Assembly (NCBI GenBank): GCA_030065315.1
Contig: JASJDB010000004.1
Location: forward strand, 1 to 43,182
Source: Xenococcaceae cyanobacterium MO_167.B52
Lineage (GTDB): Bacteria > Cyanobacteriota > Cyanobacteriia > Cyanobacteriales > Xenococcaceae
Reading direction: 5' to 3'
Length of the DNA stretch: 43,182 bases
The notes under the pieces are model-generated. The model made no database searches and was not told the origin of the DNA. It saw nothing but the letters and a program-made list of their open reading frames with translations. Below, in pieces: positions 2,487 through 24,795 of this stretch. The stretch's first letter is position 1; each line of letters starts with the position of its first letter. The position numbers and the translations under genes were made by a program.

Positions 2487-2511
2487 TCCTAAAGGATACC
2501 GCTTCGCATAT
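2487..2511. repeat. Small dispersed repeat copy (CCTAAAGGATACCGCTTCGCATA)
   Basis: A 25-bp block with the palindrome TCCTAAAGGA followed by TACCGCTTCGCATAT. The same sequence parts recur at 17970-18150, 23241-23337 and 24466-24540 in the window. It lies directly upstream of rnhA. Confidence 0.8.
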
Positions 2512-17969: not shown

Positions 17970-18150
17970 ACCGAAGGTAATCCTTATGCGCTTGCGCTTG
18001 CAAAGCTCTACCCGCAGGGGCAGCTCTACCCGCAGGGGCAGCGGTTATCCGAAGGTGTACCCTTTAGGGATCCTTTAGGATTAGGGCTGCCTCGACCGAA
18101 GGGAATGCTAAAGCATACCGCTTCGCATATCCTTTAGGGCTGCCTCATGA
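17970..18150. repeat. Dense cluster of small dispersed repeats with an 18-bp tandem duplication
   Basis: The stretch has several CCTTTAGGG/CCGAAGG-type palindromic pieces, the block TACCGCTTCGCATAT, and a perfect tandem copy of GCTCTACCCGCAGGGGCA (18005-18022 and 18023-18040). It is more GC-rich than its surroundings. The same pieces occur at 2487, 23241 and 24466. It fills most of the gene-free gap between the hydrolase and the next gene. Confidence 0.85.
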
Positions 18151-23240: not shown

Positions 23241-23337
23241 GACGCGAAGCCCTAAAGGACTAACTTTATGCCCTAAAGGATTCCCTAACGGTCTCGGAGC
23301 GATATCCTTTAGGACGTGTCGCGAATCCTTTAGGGCA
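23241..23337. repeat. Small dispersed repeat cluster between tagA and the RelE module
   Basis: Four copies of CCTAAAGGA or its complement TCCTTTAGG(A/G) occur within 97 bp, mixed with GCGAAGC and GGAGCGATATC pieces. Same family as 2487, 17970 and 24466. The rest of the 23027-23377 gap is the leader of tagA (homologous to 24099-24155) plus AT-rich DNA. Confidence 0.8.
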
Positions 23338-24210: not shown

Positions 24211-24795
24211 ATGACTCAGGAATTAATAGAACTAAGAGCCAGTATTCTGGAAGGAAGATATGAAGACGCACTAGATATTGTTGATGAGCTAGAGGAAATG
24301 AGCAAAAAATCAATTCTACGAAATATTGTGTCTTTCTTAATTAGGTTAATGGTTCATTTAATTAAAAATCAATTAGAACAGCGTCTAACTAATTCGTGGA
24401 TTGCATCTATCTCTAACTCTGTGATTGAAATACAAAGTCTGAATCTTAAAGATAATGGGAAATCCTGTCTTGGTGCGCGTTCCCTTGCGTCTTACGCCGC
24501 CCTAAAGGATACCGCTCCGCATAACGCGGGGTCGCACCGCTACTATATCAAACAAGATGAATGGCAATCTTATTTGGAAGAAGCGATCGAAAGAGCTATT
24601 CGTCCTGCCAGTGTAGAAGTCATGGAAGGAAAGTTAAAAGCCTCTGTAATTTCTGCTCAATGCGATCGTGAAAATCTTATTGAAATTAGCAATAAGCTAT
24701 TAGAATTGACTTATCAATATCCTGTCAAAAATTTACCTCAGCAAATAGATAGAGTTTTGGCTGATTTACCTGGTGGAAAAGAATGGTTTGATTAG
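24211..24795 (+). CDS. DUF29-family protein with an in-frame repeat insertion
   Basis: A 194-aa member of the DUF29 family of cyanobacteria: MTQELIELRASILEGRYEDA, SILRNIVSFLIRLMVHLIKN, LEQRLTNSWIASI and LPGGKEWF at the end. Function unknown. Residues 86-110 (CLGARSLASYAALKDTAPHN...) do not belong to the family; they are encoded by a 75-bp small dispersed repeat inserted between GKS and YYIKQDEW, keeping the frame. Without it the protein would be 169 aa. ATG start with AAAGGGA upstream. Confidence 0.85.
   Translation: MTQELIELRASILEGRYEDALDIVDELEEMSKKSILRNIVSFLIRLMVHLIKNQLEQRLTNSWIASISNSVIEIQSLNLKDNGKSCLGARSLASYAALKDTAPHNAGSHRYYIKQDEWQSYLEEAIERAIRPASVEVMEGKLKASVISAQCDRENLIEISNKLLELTYQYPVKNLPQQIDRVLADLPGGKEWFD
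24466..24540. repeat. 75-bp small dispersed repeat inside a DUF29 gene
   Basis: GC-rich block with TCTTACGCCGCCCTAAAGGA and CCGCTCCGCATAACGCGG, same family as the intergenic repeats at 2487, 17970 and 23241. Length is divisible by three and no stop is introduced. Confidence 0.85.

Follow-up and report, generated by a model that had tools for sequence, protein, structure and literature searches.

The window analysed here is a stretch of 43,182 nt corresponding to contig C364 of the genome of Xenococcaceae cyanobacterium MO_167.B52 (hereafter G000; 5.25 Mb, 449 contigs, 79% complete), which, like its closest relatives, is represented by a fragmented assembly. It contains a gene of the DUF29 family whose reading frame is interrupted, without being broken, by a short composite insert (Table 1). 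The encoded protein matched the Pfam family DUF29 (PF01724) with an E value of 1.5e-5 and a score of 25.7 bits against a gathering cut-off of 22.5, and a PDB fold search with the model of this protein retrieved no match at E 0.001.

Structure of the DUF29 locus and its insert

An earlier note on this DNA had placed a 75-bp insert of 25 codons between GKS and YYIKQDEW of the DUF29 protein, and its coordinates turned out to be exact. The alignment with homologues demonstrated that the insert adds 25 residues, without a stop codon, between ...LKDNGKS and YYIKQDEW.... When homologues lacking these residues were aligned, as the note had proposed, KS was found joined directly to YYIK in G001, in the paralogues C196 and C216 of the same genome, and in G004, G011, G012, G016, and G035; named cyanobacterial homologues without the repeat were also uninterrupted at this point. 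In G001, which, like G002 and G003, belongs to the same genus, the empty DUF29 gene lies in a syntenic setting. Besides this gene and the two paralogues, the insert was absent from about 20 further DUF29 homologues, and none of the homologues free of the repeat contained the 25 residues. An identical 75-bp insert was present in the sister genome G002. The direct repeat ACCGCT, found at 24511 and 24536, was rejected as a target duplication because it is located within the insert or at its end.

The same KKSYY linker is broken in a DUF29 homologue of another genome (L080, G005:C39) by an IS630-like insertion of about 1.1 kb; therefore, the linker appears to be an insertion-prone spot for unrelated elements as well.

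The insert had been regarded as a single 75-bp repeat unit known from intergenic spots of the window. Our analysis revealed instead that it is composed of two nested elements, namely a 51-bp hairpin element, designated E51, and a 24-bp repeat situated in its loop. With the nested repeat removed, the insert reads TGTCTTGGTGCGCGTTCCCTTGCGTCTTACGCCGACGCGGGGTCGCACCGC (51 bp), and its last 50 bases match, without a difference, an uninterrupted copy at an unlinked locus of G000. Elsewhere in the window, only the piece of ~22–24 bp corresponding to CCCTAAAGGATACCGCTCCGCATA recurs, at the three positions listed last in Table 1, and not the rest of the insert. This 24-mer is an independent dispersed repeat, with 21 matches in a 325-kb genome sample, mostly outside E51, and E51 without the 24-mer is also present, with an identical 50-bp core, at other loci. 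Given the identical insert in G002, this 50-bp identity, and dozens of related copies, the insert is not a product of chance. Thus, the earlier note located the insertion and described its effect correctly but misidentified the repeat unit. In the DUF29 genes of G000 and G002, E51 contributes 17 codons and the 24-mer 8 codons, both lengths being multiples of three. A 96-bp version of the element, likewise a multiple of three, carries a nested repeat of ~45 bp and was observed at L375, L376, and L384 (G003), L362 (G001), and L397 (G004).

Table 1. Features of the window related to the DUF29 gene and its insert.
Feature	Position	Strand	Remarks
DUF29-family ORF, 194 aa	24211–24795	+	In-frame interruption after residue 85
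75-bp in-frame insert, 25 codons, CLGARSLASYAALKDTAPHNAGSHR	24466–24540	-	The minus strand is the canonical one, GCGGTGCGACC...CCAAGACA
E51, one half	24466–24499	-	Match to uninterrupted 50-bp copy G000:C22:1842-1891
Nested 24-bp dispersed repeat CCCTAAAGGATACCGCTCCGCATA, apical loop of E51	24500–24523	unassigned (.)	
E51, other half (ACGCGGGGTCGCACCGC)	24524–24540	-	
24-bp repeat only, other copy	2488–2510	+	95.7% over 23 bp
24-bp repeat only, partial copy	18108–18129	+	90.9% over 22 bp
24-bp repeat only, partial copy	23295–23316	-	90.9% over 22 bp

Folding, distribution, and mobility of E51

On its canonical strand, E51 consists of GCGGTGCGACCCCGC, a variable hairpin, and AAGGGAACGCGCACCAAGACA. 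With a covariance model based on five copies, 24 matches were obtained in G000, and copies were detected in 34 of the 61 genomes searched, all of them from the order to which the window belongs; the copy counts derive from searches and from samples of ~0.3 Mb. The sequence of the apical hairpin is highly variable, and its pairing is kept. Across 27 distinct copies, pairing was kept in 99.0% of the 405 cells, and double-sided changes were recorded in 69 cells, distributed over 11 pairs. This level of pairing was reached in none of 500 shuffles, and slid controls gave 24–46%. The covariation indicates that the family maintains a folded single strand, either DNA or RNA. An Rfam search yielded nothing overlapping the insert even at E 10, and no E51 match was obtained in phage records.

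The sampled E51 copies of G008 (L230–L249) showed a distinct arrangement. Nearly all of these 20 copies are identical, they lie within GGCAGAG-type heptamer tandem repeats in the same phase, and several are located close to contig ends. This suggests a recent co-amplification of E51 and the heptamer tandem repeat in that genome.

For 11 E51 copies of G000, including the copy in the window, sequenced empty sites were found in sister genomes or paralogues. The net insert was mostly 51 bp; it measured 50 bp in two cases, and the window copy had 75 bp. A check for target duplication had also been proposed in the earlier note; at these 11 copies, no target-site duplication of at least 2 bp was detected. 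The additional terminal A observed at L160 and L168 is not target-derived, the left base being G in the former and T in the latter; therefore, it does not represent a real target duplication. The targets approximate AARWA / RGG, with an A-rich left flank and a G-rich right flank. Judging from these empty sites, the mobility that had been ascribed to the repeats is well supported for E51, and the close relatives of G000 provide clean pairs of states before and after insertion.

E51 within genes

We analysed 85 core E51 copies from seven genomes, 35 of which lay in ORFs of 100 aa or more, the other 50 being non-genic. Among the genic copies, the net length was a multiple of three in 30, and the frame stayed open in 27, the latter value being somewhat above a rough expectation without constraint (binomial p ~0.04). 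The non-genic copies showed the same length distribution (multiples of three in 41 of 50); thus, the fit to reading frames is inherent in the element and does not prove its adaptation to genes, and the frame bias was rejected as a sign of selection within genes. In addition, 25 of sixty 51-bp copies were open in all six frames, compared with ~15% of their shuffled versions.

The host genes encoded many TnpB proteins, ISL3 and IS4/5 transposases, a Zip transporter, Uma2, adenine methylase (Dam), and DUF29 (two sites). E51 was read in at least four frames and on both strands, giving AVRPR..KGTRTKT, KRCDPA..ERAPRQ, SGATP..GNAHQD, and CLGARS..GSHR. Public annotated proteins with an in-frame E51 include WP_015195660.1, a DNA adenine methylase of Stanieria cyanosphaera PCC 7437, and BAZ47342.1. 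Where AVRPR..GTRTKT, KRCDPA..ERAPR, or CLGARS..GSHR are encountered in cyanobacterial proteins, they represent an inserted repeat and not conserved domains.

Several individual hosts were also recorded. A second DUF29 gene (L390, G011) carries an in-frame E51 at a different position (WNRN/QRCDPSEVSSDWERAPRD). In the TnpB genes L346 and L359 (G001) and L157 (G000), in-frame copies lie within or close to one and the same loop after the OrfB_IS605 domain, LN(I/L)K.M.(R)K. The read-through translation of L127 produced no Pfam hit; the reverse-strand ORF call at this locus is doubtful, and the forward frame reads as TnpB. In G040, twelve copies (L250–L260) are situated at one position (DETGDRK/K) of a transposase that we take, from its sequence motif, to be IS701-like, and they are distributed over two diverged IS lineages. 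The element brings a stop codon to these transposases (...ERAPR*), and many of the copies have internal deletions; because of these two features, the insertion sequences of G040 look trans-mobilised.

At the DUF29 site itself, the same base pair is occupied in G003 by a 144-bp in-frame insert (48 codons). It shares its outer ends and the GCGTCTTACGCCG core with the insert of G000 but differs in the nested pieces, and the additions nested in it amount to 93 bp, a multiple of three. In G001, the closest relative of G003 at this gene, the site is empty. A 97-bp frame-breaking version was found at the same site in G013, a member of another genus, and no N-terminal part of the gene was recognised there. 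One TnpB site and one further site also combined an identical place with a different interior. To account for a filled site in G003 and an empty one in G001, the element must either have entered at this base pair twice or have entered once and been lost precisely. Under one reading of these patterns, the insertion is ancestral, G001 has lost it precisely, and the interior has turned over rapidly; under the other, the element returns to preferred sites. Chance re-hits of the same site, given the short target motif, are unlikely. A bolder proposal, which we put forward tentatively and regard as rather doubtful, is that E51 is a gene-compatible mobile codon cassette that, by an undescribed, site-preferring mechanism acting on a folded single strand, returns to an identical base pair of homologous genes (those for DUF29 in three lineages, for TnpB, and for IS701-like transposases). 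If so, its fixed length of 17 codons and its mostly open frames on both strands would permit it to spread inside genes.

Outside the insert, the DUF29 genes of G000 and G002 differ at 27 of 510 sites, 18 of which are third codon positions. The dN and dS values were 0.020 and 0.195, respectively (dN/dS ~0.1), with the insert present in both genomes; the low ratio and the dominance of third-position changes indicate purifying selection on the gene since the insert has been shared. The conserved DUF29 core was intact in the alignment with homologues. AlphaFold predicted a confident helical core for the protein (mean pLDDT 85.5), and residues 83–107, located between helices 61–78 and 115–140, had pLDDT values below 50. 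Thus, AlphaFold puts the insert into a disordered inter-helix loop, and its place in this flexible loop between two helices explains why it is tolerated. The earlier claim that such repeats can donate protein sequence holds at the gene level, where the putative donation is supported by the intact ORF, by the excess of dS over dN, by the 48-codon relative in G003, and by the 27 open frames among the 35 genic copies. We infer that the 25 residues would be translated; purifying selection on the gene would also be compatible with an insert that is bypassed, and does not prove its translation.

Origin of the insert and relation to known repeats

The history that we consider highly probable comprises the insertion of E51, the subsequent nesting of the 24-bp repeat, the survival of the ORF in frame, and the tolerance of the resulting loop in a gene under purifying selection. 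The 51-bp non-autonomous element would have entered the DUF29 gene of the ancestor of G000 and G002 cleanly, in minus orientation and without target duplication. The 24-bp dispersed repeat would then have entered the apical loop of E51, an order of the two insertions that we infer. The ORF would have survived since each element adds whole codons (17 + 8) and is open in the frame used, and, with the 25 residues in a flexible loop between two helices, the gene would have been kept under purifying selection. As for the route, E51 has a hairpin, inserts cleanly, and has no coding capacity; therefore, it most likely transposes as a folded single strand, ssDNA or RNA, by means of a trans-acting enzyme.

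It is improbable, in our opinion, that E51 belongs to the palindromes of the REP/REPIN type and owes its movement to a linked RAYT (Y1 transposase), even though it is a small hairpin with many copies and no target duplication, as in single-strand transposition, and Y1 transposase genes are present in the genome. None of the three Y1 genes of G011 was located near any of its 15 E51 copies, and the coincidences noted in G000 were copies within IS200/IS605 genes (L171, C83, C417) or TnpB beside TnpA (C156). Thus, no flanking association of E51 with a Y1/RAYT partner was detected in G011 or, by these positions, in G000. No pairs of E51 copies were found flanking a RAYT gene, and intragenic insertion is common, unlike in typical extragenic REPs.

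Another explanation is splicing of the hairpin out of the transcript or translational bypassing by the ribosome; the protein would then lack the 25 residues, and the repeat would donate nothing. Segments involved in translational hops occur in T4 gene 60 and in yeast mitochondria, and the length of ~50 nt and the strong hairpin of E51 resemble them; moreover, some copies in multicopy insertion sequences break the frame (50 bp) or bear a stop (G040). However, the share of open frames among the genic copies exceeds the rough expectation (27/35, binomial p ~0.04), the additions nested in the DUF29 inserts are all multiples of three (24 bp in G000 and G002, 93 bp in G003), and no repeated take-off/landing triplet lies beside the insert. 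The frame-broken or stop-bearing cases that were closely examined are visibly decayed, as illustrated by the deletions in G040 and the frame-shift in DUF29 of G013. We therefore assign a very low probability to bypassing or splicing. The possibility that the DUF29 gene is a dying pseudogene with a frame open by luck is just as remote: although DUF29 is a multicopy family, so that its loss would be tolerable, and the G013 copy with the same kind of insert is frame-shifted, the dN/dS of ~0.1 between two insert-bearing genes, the prevalence of third-position changes, and the intact core are at odds with decay. Expansion of the linker by slippage or recombination, without a mobile element, could be imagined for a variable loop but is refuted by the identity of the 50-bp core with an unlinked copy of G000 and by the clean empty sites of other copies in unrelated genes.

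The proposed insertion history leaves the placement of E51 among known repeats to be considered. Small dispersed repeats (SDRs) of 21–27 nt were reportedly described in Nostoc and its relatives by Elhai et al. in 2008, and, to our knowledge, SDRs have not been reported to insert systematically in frame into proteins. Compared by description, E51 is similarly very small, cyanobacterial, and devoid of an encoded protein. It is also dispersed (empty sites for 11 copies, matches in 34/61 genomes), has a hairpin backed by compensatory changes (pairing in 99.0% of cells, changes on both sides in 69 of them, 0/500 shuffles), and accepts nested insertion (the 24-mer), and its sampled G008 copies lie in GGCAGAG-type heptamer tandem repeats. 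However, with 50–51 nt it falls outside the range of 21–27 nt, whereas the nested 24-mer falls within it.

The Rickettsia palindromic elements (RPEs) are palindromic, non-autonomous elements of ~150 bp; by in-frame insertion, they lengthen the products of unrelated genes (Ogata et al., 2000, 2002, as reviewed in PMC10969869). E51 resembles them, by description, in its in-frame occurrence in unrelated protein genes (TnpB, ISL3, IS4/5, Zip, Uma2, Dam, and DUF29), but it is a third of their size (51 bp, or 75–144 bp with nested repeats) and resides in cyanobacteria. SDRs have been mentioned among the repeats whose origin the REP/RAYT approach might clarify (PMC3116915). With REPs and REPINs, E51 shares short palindromes in many dispersed copies; it differs in the lack of transposase association in the tested genomes and in the frequency of intragenic copies. 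Like MITEs, it is non-autonomous and dispersed and has terminal inverted repeats, but it is far shorter and generates no target-site duplication of at least 2 bp, and our analysis found no parent IS for it.

By analogy, E51 seems to act like an SDR crossed with an RPE, and, because its size differs from that of both, it is assigned to neither. It may be viewed as a cyanobacterial counterpart of the RPEs, a small, regular mobile DNA that enters genes without breaking them. Two questions become testable with it, namely how enzyme-less elements of less than 100 bp move and how often new protein loops arise from mobile DNA. Related hairpins were also noticed at L170, L176, L177, L178, and L179, in which the GCGACCC...GGGAACGCGC core is kept and the outer stems are different; this suggests a larger superfamily of hairpin repeats.
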